Assembly (NCBI GenBank): GCA_950295325.1
Contig: OX485804.1
Coordinates: 57,166,001 to 57,230,000 of the forward strand
Length of the DNA stretch: 64,000 nucleotides
DNA from: Polytrichum commune
Taxonomy: Eukaryota > Streptophyta > Polytrichopsida > Polytrichales > Polytrichaceae
Direction: 5' to 3'
In this document: positions 13,795-48,827 of the stretch, in pieces
Layout of the letters: each line of letters starts with the position of its first letter
Numbering within the stretch: the first letter of the stretch is position 1
Notes under the pieces: model-generated
Databases searched by the model: none
Told to the model about the DNA's origin: nothing
Seen by the model: only the letters and a program-made list of their open reading frames with translations
Position numbers and translations under genes: made by a program

Positions 13795-13798
13795 TTAT
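13795..13798. repeat. candidate target duplication TTAT, left
   Basis: TTAT lies immediately outside the left terminal inverted repeat and is matched by TTAT at 36203-36206. Four AT-rich bases are weak evidence on their own. Confidence 0.4.
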
Positions 13799-13826
13799 AA
13801 CACTATATTAAACATTTCGGGACTTT
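13799..13826 (+). repeat. left terminal inverted repeat of the giant element
   Basis: 28 bp starting AACACTATATTAAACATTTC, identical to the reverse complement of 36175-36202. Just inside, the left end adds GGGAGTCCC, a small palindrome not matched on the right. Confidence 0.9.
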
Positions 13827-13867
13827 CGGGAGTCCCAAAGTGAAGATTTTTTTACATTTTGGGGACA

Positions 13868-14132
13868 TGGGAACATATTTATTGCTCCCAGGAACATGCA
13901 ACTAGCTTGTGGGAACGTGGGAACAATGAATTTAGACCATGTGAATGCCAGATGCGCACGTGGGAACCTATGTATGGGAACGTTAAAGCGAACGCATAAA
14001 CGCTCTATGGGAACATGGGAACGATATATGGGAACGCTGGGAACGTTCTATGGGAACGCGGGAACGCTCTATGGGAACGTATGTGCGCACTGTGGAACGG
14101 GGGAACAAGAAGACATTTTGTGGCTACATGGG
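13868..14132 (+). repeat. subterminal GGGAAC array, left end
   Basis: I count about fourteen GGGAAC hexamers on the plus strand in some 265 bp, often in the context CTATGGGAACG. The right end has three in the inverted orientation at about 36100-36140. Subterminal repeats of this kind are usual transposase binding sites in large plant DNA transposons; that role here is inference. Confidence 0.75.
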
Positions 14133-14596
14133 AACGGTGTGTGGTCGCGGCAGGGTAGTGTGGTTTGCAAACGTGATAGAAGGGGTGTTTGTGGTGTGCA
14201 CAGTGACAGACCGAGGGCTCATTAATACAAGTAAACCCAAACCCACATCCAAATACAAAGGATAGACCTTGCATTACATACTTCAAAGTTCAAATTACAA
14301 CACTTCACATTAGATAAATGAACCCACCCTCTATAATGCTGGTGGTTTCCATTAAGAGTTGCACGGGTACACCGTGCCCACAATGGGGTTCCATTTAGCT
14401 GCATAGTGTTGAAATCAACAAAATTTGCACCCACATGTCCGAGAGGAGCCATGATGGTCTCCCATCGAGGAACCACCCCAAAAAAATTAGTACCAATCAT
14501 TGGAGTATTTGATGTGGTGTCTCACATTGTCAAGGAAATCACATCTAATCATGAATCATTGTGTGACGACTACGATGTGGGTTTTCCAGTCTCGCA

Positions 14597-17500
14597 TTAC
14601 GAGGAAGGGTTGCCCCGAGCTCCCCGTCTACCAGTTGCACGGCCACGACCTCGAGTTCCATGTCCACCCCCTACATTTCCACGTCCACGACCTACTCGTC
14701 GCGCACTCGGCACATCAACGTCCTCCTCAACCGCCATCCCTCCGCGCTCTTGCGCAGAACAACGGCGAAGGTTGTCTTTGGCAAATTCAATCTGCTCTGG
14801 TGGAATAGTAATCTTAAGGGGCTCAACATCTTCATGTGCAGGTAGAGGCCATGCTGCCAAGATGCAGTCAATTGGTTGCCAGTCGGGGATGGAATATTTC
14901 GAATCGGCTTTCCACTTGAAGTTCGTGTTGGAGTCCCAACCATGGTATTTCTTTGTTATGTCTCTAGCAGTTGAAGTGGGAGTGAACCATTGTACCAGAA
15001 TCTGACGGGGATGGTCCCCAGTGACGTTCAAGTTTGGTGGACACAAAGCTCGGCACACCCAAATGGGTCTATCAATATCTTGATCTTGGGGTCGAAGAAT
15101 GAGGAAATGCCCCTCATGCACGTTGTCGGCAATGCGGAAAGCCGGTGCAGGTCGAAGGTTAGAGGGGCCCACATAATGGTCATCTGGTTGGTGTTCCTCA
15201 CGAAGTTCACCAGTACTCATGAAAGGATGTGCGTCCCTTTCGATTCGGGAGGATGGCCAGAATCCCTCCTGGAGTGCCAATCCCGCAGTGTACACATTTG
15301 TGAGGGGTGCCCGTAATGCCTCCAGTACCCCAGTCCAGTATTGTAAAAGATGTGTTTGTGAGCCCCTATATGCTCCGGTCATGTCATGGTCACATATAGA
15401 TTGCCAGTAGTCAACAAACCCTTGCAACCCAACAAGAACATCGTCCAGTTTTGCCATTTCTCGAGGTTTAGCAGGGTAAGGTTCCCCAGGTGGGAAAATT
15501 GGCTCCCCCTTTATGTTGGATTTCCACATCAATATGCCATCCTTGGGCAACCATTCATCATGCGTACTAAGCACCTTGTAATGCATGACGGGCCAACCAT
15601 CATCCCGTACAACAAATTTGAATTGTTGGGCTTTCGTATGGCCAATGAGTTTGTCTTGGCCATCAGGAATGTACTCACTAACAAAAGCCCTCCAATCTGG
15701 AAGCTCCTCTATCATATGTGGGATGATAGGGACCTTCTCCATGTCCATGTATGATTTCATGAGCAAGGGGATAGTGGGGTAATCATGTTCACGCAAGTCC
15801 ATACTCCATCTACCAAATGAAGCGTCAATGTCGTCATGTGTATGACCAACTAAAAGGTAAGACACGTGGACCTCTGTGAATATACCTTTGGCCGTGAGCA
15901 TGGACCAAAATGCCTTCACATATCTACACTTGTTGTCCTTCCAACAATTATCGAGTTGAACATGCAAAACGGGTGGAAGCGAGACAGCTGGAATAGGCTC
16001 ACTAGGTGGAGGTCGTAATCCTGACAAACATACATCACTCCCCTGAAGAACAGCACGATAAAGCGGTGACCGACCCGCACCATGGAATAACATGCGAGAT
16101 GATGAAGCCGGGGGCTGTTCCAAATCGCGAAGAAGCCTCGCAAATGAGCCCACAGTATGGTTGCAATCACCAGGATACAAATCCAATGCATAATGAGCAT
16201 ATCTCTCATCTCCATGGCCATGAGCCATCATGCCTGTCACGGAAAGTGGTAGTTTCGTGAACATATCAGTGTCTTTGTTCTTGTTAGCAAAGCATGGAGA
16301 TGCAGTTTTGCCATGGTCCATTTTGTCGTGAATGATGGTCAAAACCTTGCGCGGATGCTCAATGGACAACGCTCTCATACAACGGTAAGCATTACGAGCG
16401 GATTCTTGCTGTGCCTGGTGCTTCTCCAACTGCTTGGAAAACCCGGTGTGTGCGGCAGAACCTTTAACATGTTGAAGAATAATAGCCATAAGTGAATCGC
16501 ATTTCCCACAGCGAGCAAAATTGTCCCCTGCTCTTTTTGTCACGTAGTGCTTAAAATAATTCTGTCTTATTTGGCTCAGAGTCGAAAGAGAGATTGGTTG
16601 CAACCCACATTTGTCATTCACCTGAATATCATACCACATACAACATTTAGACAGCCACAGAAATGAGAACACCTGGATTGAGGCAATCACTAACAACACA
16701 TTGAAAATGGACTAAGTGGAACATCGGGAGCCTACTAACCTGGTTGATTGTAACTAAAAATTTCTTCCATTTTGTGCCGCGAGGCAAGACCATCTCCACT
16801 ACTCGAGTACCATTAGGCAAAGTGCGGGATTTATGAGGCATCATGTCCGCTTTGTCCTCTAAGAGGTTGGAAAGAGTGGCAGTGGCTTGCTGAGTGGACA
16901 CACGATACCGTTTGGTGTTCAAGTTCCCATGGTCTCGTGGTCGCACCCCACAATTGAACTCTTGTCGATTTCTGTAGAACGCGGTTTTTGAAATCACAAA
17001 TATGTGCCTCCATGCGATTAGGCAAATATCACGTCCACTAAGTGTTACCACATTCGTATGCCCCCCCGGAAGTGGATGTACTTGTCCGTGGACCTCAAGA
17101 CGTTTTGCATGCCTCATCCTTGTGGAGCAATCATAAAATTCAGTTCGAAGAGCGAGAGCCTCATCTCTAGGAAAGAATCTAAGGCACTCGCGATCACAAC
17201 ACAAAACTGCAGATAGTTGTTGTATGCTTGCATTGGTTAGTATTTGGGATTTTTTCGTTGGCTTACGACGCTCTGGTATCCTGGATGTTTCATACGCTCT
17301 CTTCCCGTCCTTCCTTCGCTTCTCCAGCGACTTGGTTTGTGCCCGTAATCTGTGGCCACTAACAAGGAGATGATGTGCCAGAGTGCAACCACCGTGGAAA
17401 ACACGAGAGATTGGCCACGCCCTCAAAGCAAACATGGCCCCCATGTCCATCATGCCATGAATAGGCTCCATTATTAGTACACCAACGTGATCAGGTCCCA

Positions 17501-17790
17501 AACATTTGTCTTCCACGCAGTCAATTGGGTTTACATTACGGCAAATTCCTTTTGCCATATTGTGTCCATGTTCATTCACAAGCATAACAGGCTTGTTCAC
17601 CCAATCATCCCTACGAAGTCCACTGCAATTCGGGTCAATATCTTCAACCGGAACAGTTTCATCTTCCGAGAATATTGCGTCGGAAAGGGATGACCCCTGC
17701 ACAAACACTTCATTAGTAAAACATATTCCAACAAACAATGTGAAACATCTTAGTTTAGAAAACCACCTCTGTGGTAGATTCCGCATCCAT
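14597..17790 (-). CDS. DUF7869-type protein, probable transposase
   Basis: Three exons on the minus strand, 17790-17767, 17696-16740 and 16621-14597, all with GT..AG introns in phase 0, give 1001 residues. It resembles the DUF7869 proteins found in plants and invertebrates: an N-terminal Cys/His-containing half (LCCDRECLRFF, FARCGKCD) and a core in which acidic residues stand in a DDE-like order. These are IIHDKMDHGK near 426, VQLDNCWKDNK near 551 and GHTHDDIDASFGRW near 590. The C terminus from about 965 is Arg/Gly-rich (RGRGNVGG). I infer the transposase role from the core and from its place inside a TIR element, with its 3' end about 0.8 kb from the left terminus. The start codon sits 12 bases after an acceptor-like TGCAG, so a 5' UTR intron is likely. 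A decayed relative lies at 37650-38049. The protein may bind the GGGAAC repeats; this is not shown. Confidence 0.83.
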
Positions 17791-18012
17791 GTGCTCGGCC
17801 AATCTGCACAAGAACACTTGCGCGGTCAGTGTTACAACTTAGGCCTGATATAGCTTCACGTACCATTCGCTATTGAATCATATTAGTGCTTGTACTCGCA
17901 ATCACCAAACGTTTAAACTAAAAACACAACTGTAGATATCCTAAAGAACGAAAACTTCATCCTGTATTATCTGCCTTGTGACCTCACTAGATATCACCTA
18001 TATCACCTGTTA

Positions 18013-18106
18013 CAATATGTCGTGTATGTGGCGCGGGCATGCATCCCACTTTCACTCGATCGAGTGAAAGTGGGATGCATGCCCGCGCCACATACACGAC
18101 ATATTG
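18013..18106. repeat. 94-bp perfect palindrome
   Basis: Arms of 47 bp with no spacer, perfect throughout. The centre is the 24-bp palindrome (ACTTTCACTCGA and its complement) shared by the other palindrome sites of the element. The outer arms contain GGCGCGGGCATGCATCCC. It lies about 220 bp upstream of the DUF7869 start codon, probably in the 5' leader or its intron, so it would be transcribed as a perfect hairpin. Confidence 0.95.
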
Positions 18107-18306
18107 GGCCCTTCATGCCTTTTCTTTTCTCAGAAAATCCGGTCATAAATAGATGTTACCCAATCTATCCCACCCGATTAACACCTACCTCCCTCTATAC
18201 ATATTATTTGTGTCGATAATAAAAACGTCGATCACCAAACAATCACATCCTCTCCCCAGAAACTAATCACATCCTCATCCCCAAACAATCACATGTTCAT
18301 CCCCAT

Positions 18307-18453
18307 GCAATCGACTCGCCAGCCCACTTTCACTCGATCGAGTGAAAGTGGTGGGCCTGCCAGCGCCGCGCCACAAAACTTTCACTCGATCGAGTGAAAG
18401 TGGGCTGGCGAGTCGATTGCAGGCCCACCACTTTCACTCGATCGAGTGAAAGT
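18307..18453. repeat. cluster of three 24-bp palindromes in nested inverted repeats
   Basis: Copies at 18326-18349, 18378-18401 and 18430-18453. In addition 18307-18349 is the exact reverse complement of 18378-18420 (43 nt), and 18326-18360 of 18419-18453 (35 nt). The cluster can therefore fold in alternative ways. The flanks suggest copies arose by strand-switching through the palindrome. Confidence 0.93.
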
Positions 18454-18720
18454 GTTGGGCCTCCCAGCGCCGGTTGTTCGGGCCGTACTGTACGGACTGC
18501 AGGGATGGGTACAGGGCCCCGCAAATATGGTGCCGCTGCAATGCTCCATGCATATGGAACGGCACATTGAACAGCGCCTCTTCGATCAGGTGTTTCTTGT
18601 TGTGTAGGACCGAACCTTGTGAAATTGATCCCTGGAAGGGATAGAAAGAAGAATGTTGTGGTGTTGTGCTCCCTGGCACAAAGGGCGACAAAAGAGGGTT
18701 CGAGTGTGCTCCTTCCAGGC

Positions 18721-18727
18721 TTATATA
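18721..18727 (-). promoter_or_regulatory. TATA box, candidate promoter for the DUF7869 gene
   Basis: On the minus strand GACTATATAAGCC is followed by a pyrimidine- and CA-rich leader without long frames and then the palindrome cluster. Its orientation and position, about 0.9 kb upstream of the start codon, suit the transposase gene if a 5' UTR intron removes the palindromes. The start site is not proven. Confidence 0.45.
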
Positions 18728-18859
18728 GTCGGGTGTAGCAGAATTGGTGGGAGAATAGTGCCCTAATCCAATTTTGAAGGTTCCCTCCCTTTCGTTTTAG
18801 GCCGTCACAGATCCGTATGCGGACGGCTTTTGATGCCTTTGGGTGGGTTTTTACATGCA

Positions 18860-19500
18860 CCTTGATACAATTGTGTTAGTGGGATTGTTTTGCATTATTT
18901 TCGGCATGATGTGTTTAAGCCAATCCGGTCCACCCCCAATCCTGTAATGATAGTTAGCACATCGCCCACTCTTGGGCATCACTACTATGAGCGCGTACTA
19001 CCCGCTGGTACGCCTTTGGATCCAAGTTTGATTGATGAGATGAAAACACGCCAGAATGTGGTCCTATCAACAGGTACCCTCAGCCCACCACTTCCATCGC
19101 ACTTGTGGCATCACACCCTGCTATTGAGGCGCGTACAACGTTGAGGTACTCACAAGCGCTCATTGTCGTTGCAACCTACATTTGTGCACCGGCTTCAAGG
19201 TTGAAGATATTTGCACCCCTAGACCTTGAATCTCTTGAAAAGAAATGGATGTCCCCAACATGTCATAACAATTACAATTAAATCATCGGCCCTCATCCCA
19301 ACGTATCTATGTATGCTTGTAGTATTGCAGATAAATTGCCATGCTCCCAATGCTATCGGAGTGGTTTATGGCACCCCGATGAGTTCTCCTTCCGAAATTC
19401 ATATTAACTATTTCAATATTAATCCAAAATTAATTATTATGTGGGTGGGTCCAATTTCCAATTACAATGTGCTTTGCACATCTCTCAACATTGACATAAT
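18860..19500. other. no recognisable gene
   Basis: An 84-residue plus-strand frame at 18890-19144 has no family features. Nothing else could be supported in this stretch. Confidence 0.4.
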
Positions 19501-19504
19501 GTCT

Positions 19505-19796
19505 TAATAACTTCCCAAGAGGTTAGTAACTTCCCAACTTCCCAATAGAGGTTACTAGTAACTTCCCAATAGAGATTAATAACTTCCCAATAGAGGTTAG
19601 TAACTTCCCAATAGAGATTAGTAACTTCCCAATAGAGGTTAGTAACTTCCCAATAGAGATTAGTAACTTCCCAACTTCCCAATAGAGGTTACTAGTAACT
19701 TCTCAATAGAGATTAGTAACTTCCCAATAGAGGTTAGTAACTTCCCAATAGAGATTAGTAACTTCCCAACAGAGGTTAGTAACTTCCCAATAGAAG
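19505..19796. repeat. minisatellite with about 21-bp unit
   Basis: About a dozen tandem copies of a unit like AGTAACTTCCCAATAGAGGT, with GAGGTT and GAGATT variants alternating. A composite block with ACTTCCCAACTTCCCAATAG recurs. The alternation suggests expansion of a two-unit block. Confidence 0.9.
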
Positions 19797-22115
19797 CAAA
19801 TTAGGAAGGGGCTTATTAACCCCATTATAGTAACCCCATTGGGCTTATGGGGTTCAACAATTCATAAATTAAATTGGAAGAATTTGAAATTTGCGCCTCC
19901 AACTTCATCTGAGGATGCCGTCTCGAATTGACCCTAGACCCTTCTACCCTATTTAACAATTAGTCCAATACCCTAAATGAAAGGTGAAAAGTGCATGTGT
20001 GGGTTAATATTAGTGAAGATTGAGTAGCCTCTGGAGGCCCATCAGCCTACTTAAACCCTAAACCCTAAACCCTAAACCCTATACTCGAAGTACCACTTTG
20101 GTTTGCATTTGAAGCAAATAATGAATGGGCTACCATGATACAAAACCAATCCCAAATATATTTGATATTCATATTAAGTGCTATGTCTGAATCGGTTGCT
20201 TCCACCATTGGTCACACTTTTTACATTATTTTGTTAGGTCCAATAGCTAAGTCATAGTCTAAGAACTCTAAAATGATTTGAATCAGCTGATCAAACTAGT
20301 CAATTTAAAGCGTTGTCTACATTTGAGCACGTCGTAAGTTAATCTCATCCTAACACGTGTTCATTTAGTGTTCCCTCATAACTGCACGTATTACAAGCAT
20401 ACAACTCTTGGACAATTGATCTGCGTTAGTGACAAATATAGGTGTTTAATTAAGAAGCGCGAACATAAGGCCCTCAAACCTTAATCACCATGTGTCCAAG
20501 TGTCTTCGTGGCAATAATGCATCCAAATAAATGCATGGCTTGGACCCTGTAGGAAGCAGTTACAACACTGGCCATTCCCGCAAATTCCTGTGAGCATGCC
20601 ACGTGTCACATATCTTCACATCATGTCTTCAAAAGTTCACGCCCAAGCAGTTGCTCTTGCAATGGTCGGAGTCAATTGTTGAAAGTGCCTATATTGTTCG
20701 TAATTGGGAGTTCACCCATTGGATCTCCCCTTTATGACCTCTCCACTTTCCTTCCATCCACACTCATAACCTTAGTACGTGTAATTAGGTTGCCTTCGCA
20801 AATGGGTAAAGTTGTGTTGCCTCTTACATCGCCTCTTTACGCAAGCAACTTTCCATAGGTCAAACTCGGATCAAAAACCTTATATTAAGTTTTTTGGTTC
20901 ATTCCTATCACAATTAAAGTCCATACAAAATTTGTGTATTTTGTTGTACTGGTAATAAATAATCAAGTAATGTGACATGCCAATAGATTAGTGCAAGACT
21001 ACCTAATTGCCAATATTGGTGTAGGTAGATTCATTGGCATTTATTTGAGCTACTAGTCTAAGAGACAAATTGAATCCAAACTTAAGTTAGAGTTAGAGCA
21101 AACCAAGAGCTACCTCAATTGATGGAAACAGGGATTTGAGTATATTTGGATTATGCATTAATTTTGGACAACACAACTGCCTAGTAGTATATGGCGTGCA
21201 CTAGATTGGAAAACTACATGAAATTAATATAATGGTGGTTGGCAAATATGGCATACATTGTCAAACATTTGAAGTTGTCACTGATTGTTGTGTTGTCACT
21301 CCCACTCCAGTGCGCAATAATTGTGAACTTTTTAGGGTTTAGGGTTTAGGGTTTGGGGTTTATGGGTTAAGTTATTTAGTGGGCTCCAATCTGCCTTTGA
21401 AATCCAATGAGCTCAGTTATGTGCAAAATGCAAGGGTGGCCATTACGAATGGAACGGTCATTTGAAGCTCCAATGTGGTGTTTTGAAAAATGGGGTAACG
21501 TTATGGTCACTAACCTTTCACCATTTAAACTAGTGATCAATCTTGGGTCAAGTAACATAGTGACATTTCAAACATATTGGCATAAATATGCTTACAATTC
21601 AACCTACAAGCCTCAACCCTCCATCCTAAACATGCACTCTAAAAACTAAAACTCTATGCCTGAACCCCAAGTTCTAAACGTTACCCCTAGACAATGAGTT
21701 TAATATCTAGCCGACGTTGAATGAATCATATCATCGTGACGAAGGCCACAAACCTATGCATTGGGGAGTCAAGTGTTCCACATGTTGATGGATGAGAGTA
21801 AACTTGTCAAAGCATAATTATTATACCCATAAGAAGTTTACACATTTGGTATGACACTAGTCGTATAACTAGTGTTAGACATAAATGCGCCACCACCCTC
21901 CCTACGACCATGCACCTTCTCTTATCTTTGTTAAGAAATTTTCACATCCTTACTAACACTAAATTTGGGCATGTGACTTACCATAGTCCAAGTTTAGTGT
22001 TTGAGTTCACAATGAATGTTACTTACTTTCATCTAGGGTTACTAATATTTAGTGTATGCGTTCGTATTTTGTGTATCTAACACTAAATATCACTAGAGTG
22101 GGTTGGGACATATAT
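19797..22115. other. non-coding stretch with inverted telomere-motif runs
   Basis: No supported gene. About four CCCTAAA units occur near 20053-20081 and about four TTTAGGG-type units in inverse orientation near 21329-21360, about 1.3 kb apart. Around 21130-21300 the sequence resembles 63200-63365, an uncharacterised dispersed repeat. Confidence 0.5.
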
Positions 22116-22118
22116 GCA

Positions 22119-22270
22119 CCACTATAGTTAACTAATCATTAATAGGTCAATGATCATGCACAAATAATATCATCGTGAACTAAACCTTAAAGGTCAGCAA
22201 TCATGCACCACTATAGTTAACTAATCATTAATAGGTTAGTGATCAAGCACCACTATAGTTAACTAGGTTC
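22119..22270. repeat. tandem block with ACTATAGTTAACTA motif
   Basis: CACCACTATAGTTAACTA occurs three times, at about 22119, 22200 and 22247, twice followed by ATCATTAATAGGT. The same motif recurs more loosely at 23600-24200. The motif contains the palindromes AACTATAGTT and GTTAAC. Confidence 0.7.
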
Positions 22271-23407
22271 TGAGAGGATTGTTTATTGCGCACCACTATT
22301 CACCACTTAGTGTAGTTAGTGGCGTTGTAGTTGCCACTATTATTTAGTGGTAGAAGGTCTCGAATACTTGCCAGCAGATTGCCTACTAGTAGGCTTATGA
22401 AAGTGCACAATATTAATATCGGATGGAGGGCTAACCCTTGCGACACCCACTTTCACCATATGTTATAATCAACACAACAATAACATAACATCTGTTATGT
22501 TATTATAACCAACAGACAACCTTAAAGTTTACCACCTTGCAATAAAGAAGTTCAACCCAAGTTAACTTATGCGTAGTACAATGAACACACGACATCCTTA
22601 CACCGTCGCGTAGGCCTAAGGTATAGACACCCATAACCGATAACGCACCCATCACCGACAAGTAGACCTATGCATGAACGCGCATGGCTTAAATTAGCAG
22701 AAGTCGATGTTTTTATATTATAAACGTGAGGACCATATGACTTCGTGGAGGGGAAGTTGTCGAAATAGTTGTTGTCGGTCATGGGTGAAGCTATATGTTG
22801 GTTATGGACTCTAACCAACTTTCATGTTTGCAAAATTTGTAGTAATTCTAACTTTACTTAATCAATTTTGAAAAAAAGCTCGACATTCATCATGGACATT
22901 ATTTTCCTACGCAGAAAAATTAACTCCTTCTTGATAACCGAAGATATGCTATGCTGAAATTCTTAAGTTATCGGTTATAGGTATAATATGTACCTTAACT
23001 TAAATTTAGGGGAAATCTAGATATATTTAAAGATCCTACTACAGGCCACCGGTCCCTCTATAAATGTCCGTGAAGGATAGAAGATTTCAAGAGTGATTTA
23101 GATTGTGAATTTCTTACATCTTTCTACTACTGCTTTCTTGTTGTCCTCGAGATTATCATTGATACATTCTATTAACCTTGATAATGTCACCCTTGGTAAT
23201 AGAACACCTTAAAGTTTGAAACCGATTTTCTTAGTGTAAAACTCCCTTGTTATTATCCCTATCATCCTAGACAATGCCACTATCCAAAATCCAAAATACA
23301 TCCAAAATACTCCAAAATACTCGAAAATCCGTAGTGTGAACGTTATAATATCAATTATGGATGGATTGTATGTGATGGTTGGATGGACAGATTGTAATAG
23401 CCAAAAG

Positions 23408-23508
23408 GGTCATGAGCCGCCCCCTGTGATAATGCAATGCTATTCACATGGTCATGAGCCGCCCCCTGTGATAATGCAATGCTATTCACATGGTCATGAG
23501 CCGCCCAT
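23408..23508. repeat. 42-bp tandem repeat
   Basis: Starts of GGTCATGAGCCGCCC at 23408, 23450 and 23492, exactly 42 bp apart. The first two units are identical and the third is partial. The frame across it (23336-23608) is a by-product of the repeat. Confidence 0.9.
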
Positions 23509-23604
23509 GTGCACCAACTTTGAACGGTGTTGTCTATACACGGCACTCAAAGGTGTTGTATGGGACGGCACTGTCAAGACTTCAGACCTTAAACAACTGC
23601 CAAA

Positions 23605-24215
23605 ATAACTAGAGTTAACTAGAGTTTTTTCAAGACATTAGAAAACAACTATAGTTAACTAGGAAATTTTCAAACCAATTTGAAGAACAACTATAGTTAA
23701 CTAGAAATATTTAAGACCATATTAAAAAACAACTATAGTTAACTAGAAAAAAATTCAACCAACTACAACTTGAGAGTTCCAAAAAATGTAAGGAGTCAAC
23801 CAACAAGTTATTTCATTTTTGAATTAACGTATATTACATAACTTCTATAATAGACCTTATGTTTGTCACCCATGAAGGCCCATCCCAAGAAGGACTAGAA
23901 CCCATTATACTCTAAGTAACTTAGACATAATGAAGTCATCATCATGATGCTCATTGGGTGTTGATTGAGTGCGGATCACAACTGGAATCAAGTCCCAAAT
24001 TTAAATTTTGAATAAAAGAGAAGGAAAATATATAGATGCTATGATCTGTCATGGTACTACACTACAGGTTGTGCCCAACTTTAGTTAACTAGATATAACT
24101 ATAGTTAACTAGATTTTTTGGCATACCAAAATCAAAACAACTATAGTTAACTACATTTTTTGGCAGGTCAAATCACAAACAACTATAGTTACGAAAGGCA
24201 ACTAGTTAACTGATA
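23605..24215. repeat. dispersed AACTATAGTTAACTAG array
   Basis: About seven copies of AACTATAGTTAACTAG or close variants, separated by 25-45 bp of AT-rich spacer, then a gap and further copies at about 24090-24200. The spacers differ, so this is not a simple satellite; only the motif is kept. Confidence 0.65.
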
Positions 24216-25310: not shown

Positions 25311-25312
25311 CT

Positions 25313-25707
25313 GACACTAAACACCATAAACAATGTAACAATACTTATTGAATGCAGGGCCTAGTAAACAAATTAAACTTTTTAGGTTTGATCACCCCAC
25401 CTTATTTTTCACTCGGAAATTAAACTCAAGGTTTTGATGATGATTTCAAGACAAAATTGCTCAGAAAAGAAATATTTGGACTACAAGGGAGCGCTAAATT
25501 GTCGTCCAAAGTATTCCAATGTGCTACTCTCACTGTCATAATGTAGATTTTTCAATTAATATTTTTGCTTAAACATGTTACTTATGTTGATGAATTGTAT
25601 CATATGGGCAATTAGTAGGCTAGCCTTGACACTTTGAGACCCCGCCGGCATCTAGTTTAGGCCCTTCGCACATTGTGCACTTGACACTAAACATCATAAA
25701 CGGTGTA
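25313..25707 (+). mobile_element. MITE-like element, family A, two partial ends
   Basis: The family A terminus (GACACTAAACACCATAAACA) occurs at about 25313. A longer right part, with CCAATGTGCTAC, GTTACTTATGTTGATGA and CATCTAGTTTAGGCCCTT, ends at about 25707 with CATAAACGGTGTA. This is a nested or rearranged insertion inside the giant element. Confidence 0.5.
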
Positions 25708-26149
25708 GTACCTTCTTACATGTGGTGAAATATATATGTATATGAATATGTATGTGTATATGTATAATTTTTGAGCTGCATATATATAGGTCCATTCAAC
25801 TGAATCGTTTTTGAGAGTAGAGATTATCAACGTTTCAATACATAGTACACTCTTTTAAACGTGTCTTCTTGATGTTTGCTCTTTGATCCTCACTGAACCC
25901 CATACCATTCAAATATAGGGGTTTCGGTTTATGTACCAGCCAAGCGGTGGCGGTGGCCGTATCATATCTAAATTGAACCATTGTGATGGAATCAAGCCAT
26001 TTGGACGAAAGCTCATTTGGTAAGTTAAGTGAATCATAAGTGAAAGCACCAACTAACATCATACAGTTTGCAATCAATACCCTCTACAGTTAGTAGGAAG
26101 TACCCTTCCTACTAACCCACACCCTCCTTAATGAGAACGGGTGAAACTA

Positions 26150-26452
26150 CACCCTAGCCTACTCGTCCGCCCATCATGGTCCGGCGTCTAGGATCTGGGC
26201 CGTCCATTATTGACGGCACAATCCTGACCATCGGCACTTGGGCGAAGGGACGTGGCCGTTCCCAATCTTGGGTCCAGAATGACCTCCCCCGCTCAACACT
26301 TTCATTGTGTTTTCTCCTCTTCGATCCTAGTGTTTTCTCCTCTTGGTTCTTCCGTTGCAATATTGTGCACCCTCTCCCTCTCCGCACCCGGCTCCAAGTG
26401 TATTATGCATTTGCCTTCGTCTATGCTCCTTGCTTCATTGAAATTGCTGATC
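26150..26452 (+). promoter_or_regulatory. possible promoter or leader of the ParB/MTase/HAD gene
   Basis: The sequence changes from AT-rich to GC-rich around 26150-26300 and reads as a non-repetitive leader-like region upstream of the plus-strand gene. The coding start at 27789 lies just after an acceptor (CATTGCAG), so a 5' UTR exon somewhere upstream is needed. The exact promoter is not identified. Confidence 0.3.
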
Positions 26453-26640
26453 TAGTATGCACCTTGCACCTTGCTTCACTGCCATCCGGTTGATCTCTTC
26501 TAGTATGCACCTTGTTTCATTGAAATCTGGTTGATATCTTGTAGTATGCACCTGGTTCACTCCAATGTGGTTGATATCTTGTAGTATGCACCTGGTTCAC
26601 TCCAATGTGGTTGAGCTCTGCCTCTAGTATGCACATTGCT
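26452..26640 (+). repeat. about 50-bp tandem repeat
   Basis: Four copies of a unit built on TAGTATGCACCTTG, TTCA and GGTTGATATCTTG. The middle copies are nearly identical. Diverged single copies continue to about 27050. Confidence 0.75.
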
Positions 26641-27469
26641 CAACAATCTGCATCTTCCTTTTTTCAATTCACAATCTGCATCATATCTCCCTTTTCGCAC
26701 ATTCCTCCACCCTCCTGAAGTGCCATCCACACCTGGGATCCACTCAGTATATCACAAAGAGCATCCTGGTTATGTTTATTTCATTGAATGCATTTTGCTT
26801 GACGTTTTTCTATACATTAGGCACCCTGAATTCTTATTAAGAAATCTTCTTTTGTTTGTTCCATCTCCATGGATTCGGGATGTTCACCCTGATACTCTTG
26901 ATTTCTAAAGAGTATGCACCTGGAGCCTCCAAGTGTATTAAGTCAATTTTCGTGTTCCACATTGTTTGTTTGCTATGCTTCATTGAAATCTTCACCCCCA
27001 GCATCCTAAATTTGTTCAGTGCAATCGGCATCTTGAATTTTCCTTCGATATGCTCACTTTTTGAGGTATTTACAACTGGAACCTAATCACATTCTGGTTT
27101 TTCTTTTTCAATCCAGGCCCCTGAATCCTTGCAGCATAAGCATTCAGATTAGCCATATTCCTGTACACAATATTAAATAACCTCCATCTTGATCCATGTA
27201 GCAAGACATGGTATTGGTTTCTACAGTAATCAGAACTTATGTAAAATCCCCACTCCTGCTCTTATTGTTGATTCCAAGTGAAGGTCGTGCAAGCAGAGAC
27301 TGAGTAGCAAATATACATCCATACTCTTCACACATCAGGTACACTTCCCGGCTTGCATTGAATGTCAAAGACATAGAAATAAGAAGTATATTTCAAGATA
27401 TAGTGGTGGGAAATATCCCCGTTCACACCTGACTGTACGGACACTCTTCAGGGTTGGAGGCGCTGGGCC

Positions 27470-27716
27470 ACTTTCACTCGATCGAGTGAAAGTGGCCCAG
27501 CGCTGGCGTGCTGGCTGCCTGAGCCATGGCTGGCCACTGGCCACTTTCACTCGATCGAGTGAAAGTGGCCCAGCGCTGGCGTGCTGGCTGCCTGAGCCAT
27601 GGCTGGCCACTGGCCACTTTCACTCGATCGAGTGAAAGTGGACCAGCGCTCGCGTGCTGACTGCCTGCTTGTGCCATGGACAACCATGGCTCACTTTCAC
27701 TCGATCGAGTGAAAGC
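27470..27716. repeat. four 24-bp palindromes in a 73-bp tandem repeat
   Basis: Copies at 27470-27493, 27543-27566, 27616-27639 and 27693-27716, the last with one mismatch. The first extends to 44 bp of perfect palindrome with GCGCTGGGCC arms. The unit also holds GCTGGCTGCCTGAGCCATGG. The array ends about 70 bp before the acceptor that precedes the start codon of the ParB/MTase/HAD gene, so it probably lies in a 5' UTR intron. Confidence 0.93.
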
Positions 27717-27788
27717 ATTAATGTTGAGTTGAGTGATGCATTAATGTGGCTTGAAGATTAACTTATTTCACATACCATTGCAGGAGGC

Positions 27789-30700
27789 ATGGACAAAGTT
27801 GTTTTCTGGACAGATATAGTTGGAGTCAAACAAACAGGACCAACTGCTCAATGGGTAATTAGAGACTCTCATTTGCAGAAGTGGTCGCTGGCCATTAACA
27901 AGAGAAACAAATCTTCAGGGTACGAGCTTATATTTACGTACAAGGTAAACAATAGTTGGATTCCGAACCCTGGAAATCCAATTACCATCGCTCATGTGGG
28001 AGCGAGGGACAGGCTAGAGGTTTCGGTTATGGAGGGGGTGGAAGAGAGAATTTTATCAATTGATTGCAAGAAGCATACATTTCTCTTGGTGCCATTTTAT
28101 GAGTCCATGGCCTCATTCCCTTCGAAGGAGAAGGAAGAGATAGAGAAGGTGATGTCATCTGGAATATCCAAAAGAGCCATAAACTTTGTGTTGGAGACAC
28201 TGGAAGACATCAACAGTAGAGAGGCAGCTACACGGGAAGAATCAAGGCAGCAAAAGAAGAAGCAAGCCGAGGTTATACTGAAATCCAAGGCCGATGAAGG
28301 TGGCAGCTCTATTGGACAACAGCCGAAGGCAAAGAAGGGGAAAAAACCTGAAGAGCTAACCGCATCACTGGAGACGGAGAGAAAGAAGCCTCACGAGGTG
28401 GTGCCCCACGTTTCTACAGATTCTCAGAACACGGAGAGGGATGCTGGGGATGCCGGGAGTGGAAGGAAAAAGAAAGCAAAGAGGGCTTTGTCACCCGAGA
28501 AGAAATCAAAGCAAAAGAAAATGAAGCCCGACGTTGTTATGCATGAGGAAACCCCACTGGTCTTGACTCAAGCGGAGAAGGGTCGAGTTATATCGCAAGG
28601 TCAACAACCCAGCCTTGAGGAAGCTGCTCTGGATAGGAAGAAGTTTTTGCAACTTTTTGGGCACATTTATCCATTCGGCGCAGAATCGATATTCCGTGTA
28701 CCCATCAAACAAATGAAGGGCGCAAAAGCTTATCAAGTTACGCGGCCTTTGGATCCAAGTGGGGTGAACCTCATGAAGAACTACCTTATCCAAACCCCGC
28801 CTGCTTGGCCTCAGCACAATCTGTGTTTGATGCCGAAGTTCAAGAAAGGTGAGACATGGCGAGAAGGCATGACATGGGATGACATCAAGAACATGCAATT
28901 CGCCATAATCAATGGGCAACATACTGTAGCCGCATCTACGGAAATAATTGCTCATCGAGATACCGATCCGAAGCTCAAGGAGAAGTTAAAGGTGTGGCCC
29001 TGCACAATTGTGTGGACAGAGGATCCGAGCATGACCGTCAGGCTTTCATATACATTGAACAATTCGAACTCGTTCAACAAGTTCACACCGACATGGACTA
29101 CACAAATTCTGTATTGTCGCAGGGTTTGGGTGAAGTTGAACAAGCCCGAAAAGCAGCGTGCGAACGCCTCTGAGGCTACACAGGACCCTGAGAAAACATT
29201 GGCTTGGAAGGTATGTTACTCTGCTCCCTTAATTCATCAGACCTCAAGTGTTGACATGACCTCACACCACTTTCACTCGATCGAGTGAAAGTGGTGAGGC
29301 GCACCTAAAGTGTTGACATGGCCTCACACCACTTTCACTCGATCGAGTGAAAGTGGTGAGGCGCACCTCAAGTGTTGACATGGCCTCACACCACTTTCAC
29401 TCGATCGAGTGAAAGTGGTGAGGCGCACCTCAAGTGTTGACATGGCCTCACACCACTTTCACTCGATCGAGTGAAAGTGGTGAGGCGCACCTAAAGTGTT
29501 GACATGGCCTCACACCACTTTCACTCGATCGAGTGAAAGTGGTGAGGCGCACCTAAAGTGTTGATCATGCAGGCATTGTAAACCATTGTATCCTAAACCA
29601 ATGTATCCTATATCCATGATGTGCAGAACTTTACTACCAGCATGGAGGCATCATTCACCGCAATCGCAAGAGGGATCACGCATAACGATCTTAAAGCGGA
29701 ACTCACGTTAATTATGGCCCCTGAGGAAACATCAAGATTGTGGAAGAAAGTGTTCATGTCGCACGAGAAGGGCTTATTTATCAACCCGGACAAGCCAGGA
29801 CGCACATACCTGGAGGATCATGTGGAGGCTCAACAAAAATTGCGAGCTCGCCACGAGAAGTCCAAGGCAGGAACACCCTTCGTGGAGAAACCTTTCGTGA
29901 CTAAACCCCTTACAAGGGAGACATTCAAGAGTATGTCAGGACTCACAAAGCCAGACTTTCACCTGGCAGCGAGACGGCTTTTAGAAGGGAGGGGAGAGGA
30001 CGACGTTCCTAGTGTCACTCTCAGGCCTTGCAAGAACAGCAATGTCGTGACACTGAAGTCATGGTGCAATTTCCGCAAGTGGAAGAATATCTTGCTGCAG
30101 GAGTTGGATAAGCGGGATCCCAATAAAGTTGGCTTGTGGAAGAAGGATGATGAGGGGAATGGGTTCCTGGATCGCGACGTATGGACAAAATTCAAACGGG
30201 AGCATGGAGTTACAAAGCCGAAATGGGTAAAGCTCTACCAGGTTGCGACTTCAGAGTGGTTGAACAGGAAGAGGGCGACTAACAACAAGTCCTTACCGGT
30301 ACAACCGGCTTTAGACCGATTGCTTCGCGACTGGCTGCAAACAAATTTCAACGAATGCACAGGGCAAGTGATCACGCGGTGGGTGTCACATAATGCCATT
30401 AAGAAACGATTGGTGATTCCCAAACAAGATTCCAGTGATGTTGAGTGGATTGAGGGAAGCACCATTGCCGCGGGGTTTCTGGACTTCAGGTTCATCCCTG
30501 GATGTGTAGATGAACCAATCCCTCCTGAAGTTGTGGAGTCCTTGGTTAAATACTTGTGCTCTCCGGAATGGACACCAGGGGTGAAATCTGTTCCAGCTTG
30601 GATGATTATCTCCGACTTGCGTAGCCATGATGCCTCGCTCGTATTCATGTCGTCGCTTATGCGCAGACATCCCAACACGTTTGTGATCGTCCCGTCGTTC

Positions 30701-33700
30701 TATTTCCCTTGTCCTGCAGAGGAGATAGCCGACCCCAAAGAAATAGTTGGAAAGAGGCAAACCCCTGCCCTCTACATCGACCACCTCATTGTCCCAGATA
30801 AATTTCCCAGGTGGAAGGTAATTGCATGTCCAATGCTAGCCCCGGATTCGCGCCGATACAAAGTAAAACCCAAGGATTGGTCTGAGTTAACATATGAAGT
30901 GAATCGAGGGGAGCTCAGAATGGAGGTCTATATTAAGTTCTTGGAGTACATGGGTTCCGCCGGAGGCATGGTTCTCAATCTATTTGGGGGCTTGAAACCA
31001 GTTGCTGCAGCGTTGGTGAGTTCTACCTATCTGAACAATCTCAATTCGTTCCCTTTCACCTCTTCCCTCTTCCATTTATCTAACCTCATTGATTTTCCAG
31101 ATGCACGATTACAACGTCTTTTCCTACATGGATTCGGCATTCTTGCATATTCTGGACGCGTTGATTCAACGTGTTCGCGTACTTAAGCTGAAGGATTTCG
31201 CTGAACAAGCCGAAGATGAAGATGAGTACCAAGCCCACGATGGCCACATTCACCCTGACCTCAACCCAGATCCACCCTTGCTTTTGGTAAGTATTGCTAA
31301 TGAATTACTTTCTTGTTTATGAAAATCATCGTTTTCTCACTTCCCCTTTATATGAGATGATAGTTGACATTGTATGGTTGCTACACAGGAGGATGTCGAA
31401 GATCGCGAACCGATCGAGGCCATGGACATTGACCGAAACCCCTCCGATGTGGAAGATCTTCCTGACGATGAAGATGACGAGTCTGTGGAGCCTCCAAGTG
31501 AACGGGATACCGACGTCGAGAGCCATGGCGAATCCCCCCACACGTCCCATCACTCGGACGATGATGCCCCTGGCGGTTTGACTCCGTTGGAAGAGCATAT
31601 GTCGACTGCCTGCGATCTCGGTGCTTCGCCGCTACGAGCGAAGCAACTTGACTTCGATGACGAAGACCGCGATGACCAAGACCCAGCTGACGATGAAGAC
31701 CAGGAGGATGAGGACCAGGAGGATGAAGAACACCAAGATGAGGACCAGGATGTCGAAGAAGAGGATCAGGATGCCCTTGAGGAGGATCAGGATATCCAAG
31801 AGGCCCAGGATGTCGAAGAGGAGGTCGAAGATGTCGATGTGGTTTTGGAGTCCCCTCGTTCTATTCCCGACACCTACCAACCTCCACAGCCTGCTGCACG
31901 TAGTCCACAGAGACCCAATACCGCCGAAGTTGGTGCTAGTGGGTCCATGGACATTCCACATAGTCCCCTCAGACCCAGTACTGCCGATGTTGGTCCTAGT
32001 GGGTCCATGGACATTCCACAGAGTCCCCTCAGACCCAGTACTGCCGATGTTGGTCCTAGTGGTGCCATGGACATTCCACATAGGAAGTCCTCTCGCTCAC
32101 GAAGTCGGTCCTCAACTAAGGATAGGCATAAACGCCGCCATGGTAAGCCCGTGGAGCCCCCACTTACGACGGCTGTTTTGGAACCTCTCATGATGGGCAT
32201 TTTGAATAAAAATTTACCAGGCTTGCTAACGAGCTTGTTCAAGGATGCCATGGCCCAGGCCATGCCACCCTCTCAAGTCGTGCCCACGCCAATTCCTACT
32301 CCGGCCACTGTACCAGCAAATGCGGAGGTTGTTTTTGTCCCCATTGGTACTGACCCTTCCCAAGATGTCCTTCCTCAAGTAAAGCCAGCTCATGTGGATC
32401 AACCGGAGGTTGCTGAGAAATCGGCCGAGAAGAACGAAGTGGAAAGTTCACCTGCAGATGCCGGATGCCTGGAGGGGCCTTCACATGATTCCCAGCTTGT
32501 TGAAGATGAGGTAAATATCCTTGACCTATTCTCGCTTTTCCAATTGTTTTTAAACATGCTAGTCACTGAATCTCCGCCGGGATGTTTGATCCAGGTTGGA
32601 GGCCGCGCATCATAATCAAACCACTTGGAGAATAGGAAGCCGTTTGTAGATCGCAATCCAAGGCTGACTAGAGCATTGGACTTAAAAACCTTTAGGACAT
32701 TTTAGTTGTAGCCAAACTCACCATGTACTGGGTATTTGGAAGATGTACATTTTACATTCAATGAAATGTGTTTCGTCTATACATTGTCTGCAATGGCTGT
32801 CATTAACAATGCATGTTCAATTCACAGGCTGGTTTGCAAATCGTTGATTTCACACGGCCAGAATCACCATGTGCAGCAGTCCCGCAAACGGGTGCAGCCG
32901 AAGAGGACACCTCACTTATAGTTGGCCCCATGCAAGCCCCCATTGCCACTACATGTCGAAGTCCAACGCTTGTCGTCACCCCTTTGGACAAAGGGGATCG
33001 TTCACCCCTCTTGCCCATAGGTAGTGACGATGATGTGGTCAAGTCGCCTTCACCCACAGCGGTCCACATTGCTGCCATCAAACCTCTTGCTCTGAAGCAG
33101 GCTGTCATCGAACATTCAGAGCCCGGGTCATCATCTGCAGGCCTGCAACAACCAATGTCACCACCTTGTTACTGTACTGCTACCGTGGAGCCAACGGAGC
33201 CTTCCTCTTCTGCAGGCCCTTGCCAACCCGAGGCTCCACATTGTGAGGAGCATGCTGTCGTTGATGCAACGGAGCCCGCTGTCGTCGATCCAACAGAGCC
33301 TTCATCTTCTGCCGGCCCACATCATGTCAAGAAAGTCGTGGAACGTTGGCCACGCGACGACAGGTTCCCCGACTTTCCCCCTGACAATACAAAAATAGCC
33401 GAACGTCCATTTGAGGCTTGGCGGGCTATGCACGCCAGCCGTTCCGAGGTCACTTGCCCAGAGCTGCGTGTGCGGCCAGCTCTCCCAGTTTGTGTAAGCA
33501 TCGTTTCCCCTTCTCATGGCACTTAGTTTGTGTAAGCTTCGTTTCCCCTTCTCATGGCACTTAGTTTGTGTAAGCTTCGTTTCCCCTTCTCAATAAAATT
33601 TCACTTGGTCCACTGGATTTTCTTTTCAATATACCCGGTTTATTTGTGTCCCAAACATTCATCTCCGCGTAGTTTTGGGTTCAGGGTGGACAAAGTGCGC

Positions 33701-34883
33701 AAACGACTGTGGATGCGCCCTTCAACCCACACGTTGTTTATGATAAACTTTTTGTTTACGCTGACAACTACCCAACGTACGATAGGAACATCTCTCAAGT
33801 TTTCACGAGGGAGATGGGAATAGCGTGTGCTAAAAGACTTATTTCTAGGGACCCTCAAGACCCTTCAGTAGGACCATCGGATCGCTGGGAATTCAATCCC
33901 ATAACTTTCGAGGTATTGGTTTCCCAGTTCATAATAACTTTTAATATTTAGTTCATTATAAACCCCCATATCAATATATGCACCTATTGCATATATGAAT
34001 GTAAGTTAATGAATATATGAATGTAAGTTATTGAATATATGAAGTTCCACAATTTTCATTAGTTGCAACATTATATGTAATTCGAGTAAAGCAGGAGAAG
34101 TTGACAGTGGATTCCTGTCGCCAGGCGCTAGCTGCTGTACCCGACCGAAGGTTCATTCTGGTGTTCGATTTGAATGGCATATTTTGTCATTGTATTCCTC
34201 GCGGCCGTTCCGCTTTACCCACATGGATGGTGCAAGATCGTGCGCCAGACAAGGGTCCGGCGATTGTCGGTCCCAAAGCTGTCCTACCTAGACTGGGTTA
34301 CAAGCACTTTTGGGAGAGAATGACCCAAATGTTCTATGTTTGCATATGGTCATCTATGAAAAAGTCCACTGTGGACCTCGTGGTGGAGTTTTTATTCAAT
34401 GGGATGTCAAGACCTGCAATAGTTCTTGGCCAGGAGGATTGCATCACATTCAAAGACATCTGGGACAATGAGATCAGGAACCCCCTAAAGCCAGAATCAA
34501 TATTGTTCTTCAAGAGTTTAAACAAAACATTTTGGTGGCCGCCTGTATCTCTTGATTCCGGACGTGTTACTGCCACTATTGAGAACACTGTTCTTGTGGA
34601 TGACAGCCCCTACAAAGGTGCTTGTAATCCTCCCGGGAATGTATTGTTTCCCGATTCCTTCACCACCAACAAACAGGCAACTGCGGATATGAGAGCAGTT
34701 CTTCTCCCCTACTTCCAACGTATGTTCAATTCGACAATGAGCGACGTACGCGATTTTGTGATCACACATAGATTTGGGCAACAGCCGGTCCCGCATAACG
34801 ATCCAGTCAGGGAGTCACTTATGATGGCCAACAAGCACTCCAATCGACCCGACTTGCACCCTATAACTGCTGTCCCAAGATAG
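27789..34883 (+). CDS. ParB-like / methyltransferase-like / HAD multidomain protein
   Basis: Seven exons, 27789-29210, 29627-31015, 31101-31286, 31389-32510, 32828-33493, 33685-33912 and 34095-34883. Every junction is GT..AG and phase 0, giving 1933 residues. Residues about 300-420 resemble the ParB/DGQHR fold (IFRVPIKQ, then FAIINGQHTVAAS). Residues about 880-990 look like the C-terminal half of a DNA methyltransferase (GGMVLNLFGGLKPVAAAL, then DYNVFSYMDSAFLHILDALI); no DPPY motif is seen, so activity is doubtful. Exon 4 is very acidic (DEDQEDEDQEDE), has three 20-residue repeats (DIPHSPLRPSTADVGPSGSM) and an RS/basic stretch. Residues about 1690-1890 are an FCP1-like HAD domain of a plant type: VFDLNGIF, CIWSSMKKSTVDL, VLVDDSPYKGACNPPGN. 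The second acid of the DxD motif is N. A nuclear, DNA-bound role is inferred. Intron 1 contains five palindromes. Confidence 0.83.
29269..29540. repeat. five 24-bp palindromes in a 62-bp tandem repeat, intron 1
   Basis: Copies at 29269, 29331, 29393, 29455 and 29517, exactly 62 bp apart, within intron 1 (29211-29626). Each palindrome is extended by CACC/GGTG and then nearly by GCCTCA/TGAGGC. The 38-bp spacer, with CACCTCAAGTGTTGACATGG, is also conserved, so whole units were duplicated. Confidence 0.95.
31920..32085 (+). repeat. 60-bp coding repeat in exon 4
   Basis: Three tandem units encode variants of SPLRPSTADVGPSGSMDIPQ. The second and third are almost identical at the DNA level, indicating recent duplication. 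Confidence 0.85.
33485..33595 (+). repeat. 38-bp tandem repeat that triplicates a splice donor
   Basis: The donor TTTGT|GTAAGC of exon 5 at 33494 is repeated at 33532 and 33570, exactly 38 bp apart, each followed by TTCGTTTCCCCTTCTCA. The second and third copies are preceded by CACTTAG, an acceptor-like sequence, so a 5-nt micro-exon context is recreated each time. Confidence 0.85.
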
Positions 34884-34966
34884 TTAGCATGTAGGGTTTA
34901 GGTTAGGGCATGTAAGGTTCATGAATTGTATGGCATGTAACATTGTGTATTATATGCTTTGTTCAG

Positions 34967-35766
34967 TTTCCTCCTGCTGGATACACACCATCCACTTCCA
35001 AGCGATCGGCATTCGTGTGTCTCACCCCGCGGCATGAACACAACGTAGTACTGGCCTGCCATCCCTTCTCACTCGCCCACGTGGGCGTAGAAGCTATCCG
35101 GGTCGCTAACTCTCAAAGTGTGTCACCCCTCACTGAAGCAACCCCTGAAGGACAGAGTCTGGTAAATATAGCTCATTTTGTTCACCTGGGAATGTTCTTA
35201 CCCAAATAAATATTTTGCAAATCTCCTTTTCAATCTCTATCTAATCTCCAACATTTGGCGTGGAATGTATGTGCATGTATATGAATGTTGGTGGTATTTG
35301 TGGGGCAATAAGTTGGAGAATGTTTTTTGCCTATGTCGGCCTGCAGGATGTTGACCTAAATATGCTCCCCCCAATGGATGACGGACCACAACCCGCCCAT
35401 ACATTATCCATTATGCGCCCCACCCCTACCCGCGAGTACCAAATTGCGCTAATCGAATCGCAAGGCCCTGACTCAAGAGGTGTTCGTCTTCTACGTGCTG
35501 GATTGGCATCACTTGGGAAGACTTATGCCCCTCAACCCGCCATGACGAAGCTCCCTTCCACCATTAACCATGTGGAGGGCGTTGACACCAGTATGTGCAC
35601 CCTCGCAGATGCTTCAACACCTCCATGCGGAACTTTGGCCATCGTGCACCCCGCTGCTACACGGGACTACCAAATTTCACTCATCGAATCTCAAGGCCCT
35701 AATTCAAGGGCAGTTCGACTTTTGCGGGCTGGATTGGGTGACCGTGGAAATAATCGTATCGCTTGA
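34967..35766 (+). CDS. two further exons after the HAD stop codon
   Basis: Segments 34967-35161 and 35347-35766 are open, bounded by GTTCAG, CTG|GTAAAT and CTGCAG, and are phase 0 like all exons of the preceding gene. The second ends with TGA and encodes two copies of a module with REYQIALIESQGPDSRGVRL and RDYQISLIESQGPNSRAVRL. The HAD exon itself ends with an in-frame TAG at 34881-34883 and no good phase-0 donor lies just before it. They could be alternative 3' exons or a small separate gene. No known family recognised. Confidence 0.45.
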
Positions 35767-36099
35767 CGAGGCAGGACTACAATTGAGCGACCTGTAGAAG
35801 CCACAACATGTATTAAATACTATAGTTGATAATGCGTCCCCTTTAGCCACATATCGGTGGGGACATATATATAGCCAAACATGTATGTAGACGCCTAAGA
35901 ATGAGGCATTCGACATATGCTTCAGGAATAAAGATCTCAATTCAAACAGTAATTGTTCTACAAACTTGGTGTATGGGTTACCAATTCTTTTCTTTCGAGT
36001 ACAAGGCTGTAGCCTCCACTCACCCACTCATTTGAACCGGTCAAAGTAGTGTTGCAATCAACTAGGAGTCCATTAGGGGTCACTGCTACACAACATAGG

Positions 36100-36140
36100 A
36101 TTTGTTCCCAATGCGTTCCCAATGCGTTCCCAATGCGATC
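36100..36140 (-). repeat. subterminal GGGAAC array, right end
   Basis: Three GTTCCC hexamers on the plus strand (GGGAAC on the minus) in units of about 12 bp, AATGCGTTCCC. They face inward from the right terminus, matching the left-end array. Confidence 0.7.
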
Positions 36141-36174
36141 TCAATGGACACTCCAGAAGTCCCATATTGACGCC

Positions 36175-36202
36175 AAAGTCCCGAAATGTTTAATATAGTG
36201 TT
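36175..36202 (-). repeat. right terminal inverted repeat of the giant element
   Basis: 28 bp, the exact reverse complement of 13799-13826. It is followed by TTAT at 36203-36206, the candidate target duplication. Confidence 0.9.
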
Positions 36203-48826: not shown

Positions 48827-48827
48827 C

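Follow-up and report, generated by a model that had tools for sequence, protein, structure and literature searches.

We show here that positions 13799 to 36202 of a 64,000-nucleotide stretch of the moss Polytrichum commune (assembly GCA_950295325.1, contig OX485804.1, positions 57,166,001 to 57,230,000 of the forward strand; hereafter the window) form one DNA transposon of 22,404 bases, as judged from its borders, its target-site duplication and its copies in the genome. The element is almost certainly mobile by means of a transposase with a DUF7869 domain, and it belongs to one of three families in which a second, very large gene is kept beside the transposase gene. New here are this two-gene architecture, conserved across the three families, and arrays of a short palindrome (dyad) whose sequence is specific to each family. 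The placement of the palindrome next to both genes suggests a self-recognition system that lets the element escape or steer host control.

Borders, copies and mobility

The element is bounded by 28-bp termini (AACACTATATTAAACATTTCGGGACTTT) that are perfect inverted repeats of each other (13799-13826 on the plus strand and 36175-36202 on the minus strand), with the target-site duplication TTAT directly outside them (13795-13798 and 36203-36206). Inside each terminus lies an array of inward-facing GGGAAC units. The left array (13869-14135, plus strand) holds 14 units with starts at 13869-14130; 13 of these fall within the first 330 bp, where shuffles give a mean of 0.39 and a maximum of 3. In the right array (36104-36146, minus strand), built of GTTCCCAATGC units, there are 3 GTTCCC within the final 200 bp (shuffle mean 0.15, maximum 2), and a motif scan of the same two intervals found no unit in the opposite orientation. 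A preliminary description, made from the letters of the window alone, had named these termini, the inward arrays and two long divergent gene models. The termini lie exactly where it placed them, the arrays are enriched over shuffles, and both multi-exon gene models are open, with DUF7869 (PF25273) encoded on the minus strand and a PF03031-bearing gene on the plus strand.

To identify further copies, we searched the 408-Mb genome, in which the window sits on contig C2, with the 28-bp terminus, and found 98 matches at no more than 2 mismatches (reversed control, 0). These matches make 20 adjacent convergent pairs less than 40 kb apart, 16 of which span 22.2-31.5 kb; among the 16, the pair at C2:63.5 Mb is set apart by a diverged left end and does not count as a copy of family A, the family of the window element. 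The genome thus does not present the terminus only as solo repeats with the two genes in different contexts, the outcome that the preliminary description had named as speaking against its proposal of one mobile unit. Searches with the first and last 201 bases of the element gave 40 and 32 scored matches, from which we retrieved 19 left and 18 right ends. With the window these yield 18 end pairs, and two left ends have no right partner. In 15 of the 18 pairs a perfect 4-bp direct repeat stands immediately outside AACACTA..TAGTGTT, and no two of these repeats are alike (ATTA, GTAT, GTTG, CAAA, CTAT, CTGA, TCAT, ACTA, TAAA, TATA, TATG, TAAT, ATGT, ACAT and TTAT).

We then joined the flanks of each copy with a single duplication, using the 14 retrieved pairs of simple structure and the window and omitting C6:4.98, C2:23.255/23.283 and C2:23.289/23.261, whose flanks mismatched. 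At least 3 of these 15 copies have paralogous empty sites that match across the junction: C4:18.8 in many places at 99-100% identity, C5:7.25 in one place at 99%, and C3:26.0 in many places at 97-100%. Since only the best 40 of 12,017 and the best 40 of 7,216 candidates were scored and nearly all of these were repeats, the remaining 12 copies do not count as negative. Copies can be almost identical: the window element differs from the C6 copy by 6 substitutions in 22 kb and 6 gap runs (21, 42, 223, 62, 60 and 11 bases), and from the C4 copy by 68 substitutions. At the resolution of 1-kb bins the gap runs coincide with tandem arrays, those of 223 and 62 bases with dyad arrays. Together, the duplications, the three empty sites and the near-identical copies bear out the proposal of one mobile unit whose DUF7869 protein is the probable transposase. 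We also observed intervals of 2.5 and 3.6 kb between the same termini (C1:53390548-53393042, C2:23211980-23215580 and C2:23261352-23264952), which are likely non-autonomous derivatives.

The last exon of the transposase gene (14597-16621, minus strand; defined by open frames, Pfam and family comparison) contains DUF7869 with an E-value of 4.9e-40, the only family above the Pfam cut-off in this gene. Candidate acidic residues, picked out by eye, lie in its IIHDKMDH, QLDN and GHTHDDID segments, and their catalytic roles are putative. A preceding open frame or exon (16740-17825, minus strand) is conserved in the B1 and C families described below. We read the element as a recently mobile and probably autonomous cut-and-paste transposon that makes 4-bp target duplications; the 28-bp termini, together with the inward GGGAAC arrays, are the expected targets of its DUF7869 protein. 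We found no mention of DUF7869 in the literature searched, and this domain of unknown function can now be placed clearly within a mobile element whose ends are defined and which makes 4-bp duplications. A search of viral contigs with two short peptide patterns per query, which distant relatives could escape, gave 26 pattern matches for the transposase alignment and confirmed none.

A gene pair conserved across three families

The second gene, on the plus strand, begins with exon 1 (27789-29210, 474 aa, with a GQHTVAAS motif) and exon 2 (29627-31015, 463 aa, with N-x-F-G-G-x-K-P near its end), both set by GT..AG ends and family comparison, and continues with exon 3 (31101-31286), defined by family comparison and a conserved YNVFSYMDS / LSIYSYIED segment. 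An acidic, repeat-rich exon (31390-32510) and a Pro/Ser-rich exon (32829-33493) follow as open frames with inferred ends. The next exon (34066-34883) encodes a NIF/FCP1-type HAD phosphatase-like domain, assigned from Pfam (PF03031, E-value 7.7e-10), the Protein Data Bank (PDB) and the family alignment. A C-terminal exon with a repeated DYQISLIES-type motif (35347-35766; open frames and family comparison) belongs either to this gene or to a separate one.

Searching the genome for exon 2 gave 98 match rows, which we merged by hand into 76 loci, since 22 rows were additional fragments of loci already listed. For DUF7869, where 91 of 2196 candidates were scored, 112 rows merged into 91 loci (21 additional fragments). 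The loci fall into three groups by identity to the window element: A, with near-identical copies of exon 2 and a DUF7869 core at 98-100%; B, at 43-66% and 72-89%; and C, at 25-27% and 58%. Over exons 1 and 2 together, the farthest family is about 25% identical to the window's second gene, and between A and B1 the second protein is 64-66% identical and the last transposase exon 83%. The order of parts is nonetheless common to A, B1 and C: an exon 1 with GQH[ST]VxAS, an exon 2 with N-x-F-G-G-x-K-P, a short exon with SYM or SYI, then acidic or Pro-rich parts, and finally the HAD domain.

Of the 76 second-gene loci, 55 have a DUF7869 match in divergent orientation no more than 50 kb away, namely 16 of 17 in family A, 38 of 53 in B and 1 of 6 in C, where the count is a floor because the DUF7869 search scored 91 of 2196 candidates. 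In five of the paired B loci the two genes lie more than 30 kb apart. Two family-C elements that we read directly contain both genes in the same layout, and one, read at both ends, measures 16,733 bases, ends in AACACTATATTCGTTAAATTGAGACTTT and is flanked by the duplication CTAG/CTAG. Its terminus has 800 matches in the genome at no more than 1 mismatch (393 and 407; control, 0), which indicates that family C has hundreds of ends; on C1 alone, 90 exact matches make 34 convergent pairs within 50 kb, and 19 of these pairs have a length of 15-19.5 kb. In all 12 exon comparisons between families, nonsynonymous divergence (pN) was well below synonymous divergence (pS), with pN/pS of 0.14-0.39, showing that both proteins are maintained by selection between families. 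Far from being random cargo, the second gene retains its divergent pairing, exon order and purifying selection across three families. The preliminary description had likened the unit to giant cargo-bearing elements, a comparison that lacks support, since every family read has the second gene as a conserved component; the stretch between the genes was scanned for open frames, with no search for captured genes.

Library searches with exons 1 and 2 of the second gene returned weak, scattered matches only (best E-value 0.016, in 1 of 6 members). A ParB/methyltransferase reading of these exons, spotted by eye, was not confirmed by Pfam, PDB, PHROGs and NCBIfam (exon 1) or profile comparison (P 0.55 for exon 2 against a ParB-methylase profile), and we retain it as a lead only. 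The adenine methylase motif D-P-P-Y was not seen in exon 2 in the family alignment, making active adenine methylation unlikely. Small contigs C10, C12 and C23 (L061-L064) carry bacterial or phage-like ParB and ParB-methylase genes and are probably contamination. In viral contigs, 191 pattern matches for exon 2 and 53 for exon 1 gave no confirmed relative, under the same two-pattern search with its limited reach.

Family-specific dyad arrays

The family-A dyad is a 20-bp palindrome, TTTCACTCG-AT-CGAGTGAAA, with 9-bp arms around 2 bp. The window element has 13: four upstream of the transposase gene (18050-18451), four just 5' of the first ATG of the second gene (27472-27714), and five in intron 1 of the second gene (29271-29538), where they sit in 62-bp tandem units. 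A perfect-arm scan of the remaining 41.6 kb of the window found no further dyad. One of the dyads upstream of the transposase gene is contained in a 94-bp perfect palindrome with 47-bp arms and no spacer (18013-18106). In one family-C element we identified 27 dyads of a different sequence, TTTGGGTCG-NN-CGACCCAAA. They lie 5' of both the transposase gene and the second gene, occupy intron 1 and recur in later introns as well as exons; relative to the genes, A and C dyads occupy matching positions. In 20 shuffles of each element the mean count was 0.0. Family-B arms read TTCCACTCG, TTCCTCTCG or ATCCACTCG.

Across the genome we counted 236 dyads of the A form, 400 of the B form and 9731 of the C form, with every reversed control at 0. 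We tested location on samples of 50 from A and B. All 50 listed A dyads lie within family-A loci. The B sample comes entirely from C1: 46 of its 50 dyads have a B gene match no more than 25 kb away, 49 have one within 30 kb, and one is distant. Between families both arms change alike, and the 2-bp spacer is variable in B and C. Symmetric change of the arms around a loose centre is the pattern that a dimeric DNA-binding protein would impose, and from these sequence patterns the dyads are likely to be binding sites of a protein that the element itself encodes.

The layout is close to that of the VANDAL elements of Arabidopsis, in which an extra element-encoded gene, VANC, goes with fast-changing tandem arrays of a family-specific motif upstream of a gene and in introns (PMC5735166). 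VANC21 motifs form arrays upstream of VANA21 and in a VANC21 intron and are gained or lost between copies (PMC5735166, PMC10398659), and the targets of VANC6 differ from those of VANC21 (PMC5735166). Family-specific motif arrays in non-coding parts are thus common to both systems, with some family-C dyads exonic in addition. The likeness is one of layout, and the two systems differ in detail: the VANC21 motif is the 9-base YAGTATTAY and here we find a 20-bp dyad, and the VANDAL transposase is Mutator-like, whereas Pfam gives only DUF7869 above the cut-off here.

We propose that the second gene encodes a very large regulatory protein, present beside the transposase in every family read. The family-specific dyads would most likely be bound by a dimer of an element-encoded protein, for which the second gene's product is the first candidate. 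Such binding, 5' of each gene and within intron 1 of the second, would keep the element's own family expressed against host silencing, in the way that VANC acts for VANDAL elements. A mobile two-gene element with an element-encoded dyad-binding regulator is, on balance, the explanation that we favor for the data as a whole. Its parts are less secure: that the regulator is the second gene's product is a tentative assignment, and so, by analogy, is an effect through anti-silencing or activation rather than repression. More speculatively, the system could be an independent second plant invention of sequence-specific self-recognition, in which the companion protein, a very large one that combines a ParB-like motif, an N-x-F-G-G-x-K-P domain and a phosphatase-like domain, recognizes a family-private palindrome, activates or de-silences its own family only, and changes together with that palindrome. 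If so, such joint change at family splits would let several families multiply in one genome.

A number of observations weigh against this proposal. No DNA-binding domain was recognized in the second protein, either in Pfam and PDB (exons 1 and 2) or in PHROGs and NCBIfam (exon 1). A comparison of exon 1 with a ParB profile gave P 0.03, aligned just at the GQH motif (unrelated control pairs, P 0.33 and 0.45), and two single-sequence structure models were unusable (confidence score pLDDT 31.6 and 33.7). The HAD motif, usually DxD, is DLN in all five aligned rows, so that enzyme activity is doubtful and the domain may be a dead enzyme. All 50 listed family-A dyads have AT as their spacer, which is thus not free in that family. 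B elements contain more half-sites than perfect dyads, family-C dyads also fall within coding exons (L053 and the family-C elements), where they read as FGSTDPN peptides, and our scan demanded perfect arms and so leaves imperfect dyads uncounted. For the element itself, 21 of the 76 second-gene loci have no listed DUF7869 partner, in part from the scoring of 91 of 2196 candidates; some family-A copies have stop codons in exon 2; and three of the 18 end pairs show no duplication (C6:4.98 and two in a nested, inverted cluster at C2:23.2). The right ends of these three pairs and the right end at C6:4.973 have one common flank, and we therefore read these loci as rearranged.

A different account of the same arrays is that the dyads are the transposase's own binding sites, like TnpA sites in CACTA elements, and serve synapsis or self-repression, with the second protein acting on the host in another way. 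CACTA elements do work through element-encoded proteins that bind repeated sites, and dyads are present upstream of the transposase gene too. However, the termini already own separate inward GGGAAC arrays, 9 of the 13 window dyads are at the second gene, and from A to B1 the dyad arms and the second protein have changed more than the transposase has. We consider this account unlikely, though it deserves serious attention. These families are a testable natural parallel to the co-evolution of VANC and its targets reported for the VANDAL elements of Arabidopsis: one genome holds three families with different dyads and homologous proteins, and the second gene ranges from near identity among mobile copies down to about 25% between families. 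If the second protein reads the dyad, it can be asked how DNA-binding specificity and many targets change together, and why a phosphatase-like domain of the type that acts on the polymerase C-terminal domain (CTD) belongs to a transposon.

Relation to known transposons and neighboring genes

In literature on plant giant transposons, on Sola in moss, and on ParB, KDZ, VANC or NIF with transposons, we found no description of this element. The nearest described fit is moss Sola, whose elements have 4-bp duplications and short inverted repeats and in some cases exceed 15 kb (PMC10741241). The 4-bp duplication is common to both (here in 15 of 18 end pairs, while the remaining three belong to rearranged loci), and the 28-bp perfect repeats fit the Sola range of 11-1124 bp. 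Sola elements are mostly 2-9 kb, with some above 15 kb (PMC10741241), against 22.4 kb here, and this element differs from described Sola in its dyad arrays and in the very large, conserved gene beside the transposase. We set it beside Sola by description and not by transposase sequence, and call it Sola-like by structure rather than a proven member. The preliminary description overstated how unusual its size is for plants, as CACTA elements above 20 kb and Sola elements above 15 kb are described (PMC10741241).

We also compared the element with CACTA/EnSpm, which it resembles in large size, inward subterminal repeats, an extra gene and a CACTA string near the end. It could be a CACTA/EnSpm (CMCT) element with unusual ends, in which CACTA..TAGTG begins two bases in (AA|CACTATATT..AATATAGTG|TT), and CMCT elements overall have duplications of 2-5 bp (PMC12730594). 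CACTA/EnSpm elements themselves make 3-bp duplications (PMC10741241), whereas all 15 pairs with a duplication here have 4 bp. Their outermost bases are CACTA/G..C/TAGTG, and in the 15 pairs a constant AA/TT stands outside CACTA..TAGTG with the 4-bp repeat outside that again. DUF7869 is moreover the only family above the Pfam cut-off in the transposase gene, and we regard this assignment as improbable. The 4-bp duplication rules out membership of Kyakuja (7 bp), Zisupton (8 bp) and Plavaka (2-3 bp), and the Plavaka ends TGT..ACA or CATCA..TGATG are not matched by AACACTA..TAGTGTT (PMC12730594). KDZ/Plavaka and other fungal TET/JBP elements show a similar arrangement of a putative epigenetic effector beside the transposase (PMC12730594); Pfam gave no TET/JBP match in our element. 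In Chondrus crispus, enlarged CACTA elements of 16-20 kb with 4-5 open reading frames (PMC6431247) are likewise enlarged DNA transposons with extra frames in a non-animal, from a different superfamily, and the cited passage does not mention dyad arrays.

The HAD domain raises a further alternative, that the second gene was captured from the host and is a passenger. This part of the protein resembles host CTD-phosphatase-like proteins, with the NIF/FCP1 domain and weak PDB matches to UBLCP1 and SCP1 (E-values 0.009-0.065). Three families share the gene, its exon order and its divergent position even where identity falls to about 25%, and pN/pS is low; this argues against capture, which we judge very improbable. 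A segmental duplication or assembly artefact without any transposon, which the near-identity of copies and the rearranged loci might suggest, has next to no standing given distinct flanks, 15 different 4-bp duplications on seven chromosomes, and empty sites. The rearranged loci comprise a cluster at C2:23193592-23289424 (23.19-23.29 Mb) in which family-A ends and genes are nested and inverted, and whose right ends have a flank in common with two right ends in C6:4957769-4979120 (4.96-4.97 Mb).

The preliminary description did not include the family-specific dyad arrays, the most distinctive feature of the element. In the remainder of the window, we noted a plant self-incompatibility S1 family gene (48822-49352, plus strand; E-value 4.8e-10) and, some 14 kb beyond the element on its right side, an Enhancer-of-zeste-like gene on the minus strand (50206-51015 and 52139-53551) in which Pfam identifies SET (E-value 1.1e-22), CXC and a weak Ezh2_MCSS domain. 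A tandem-repeat scan also detected plant-type telomere-like repeats.

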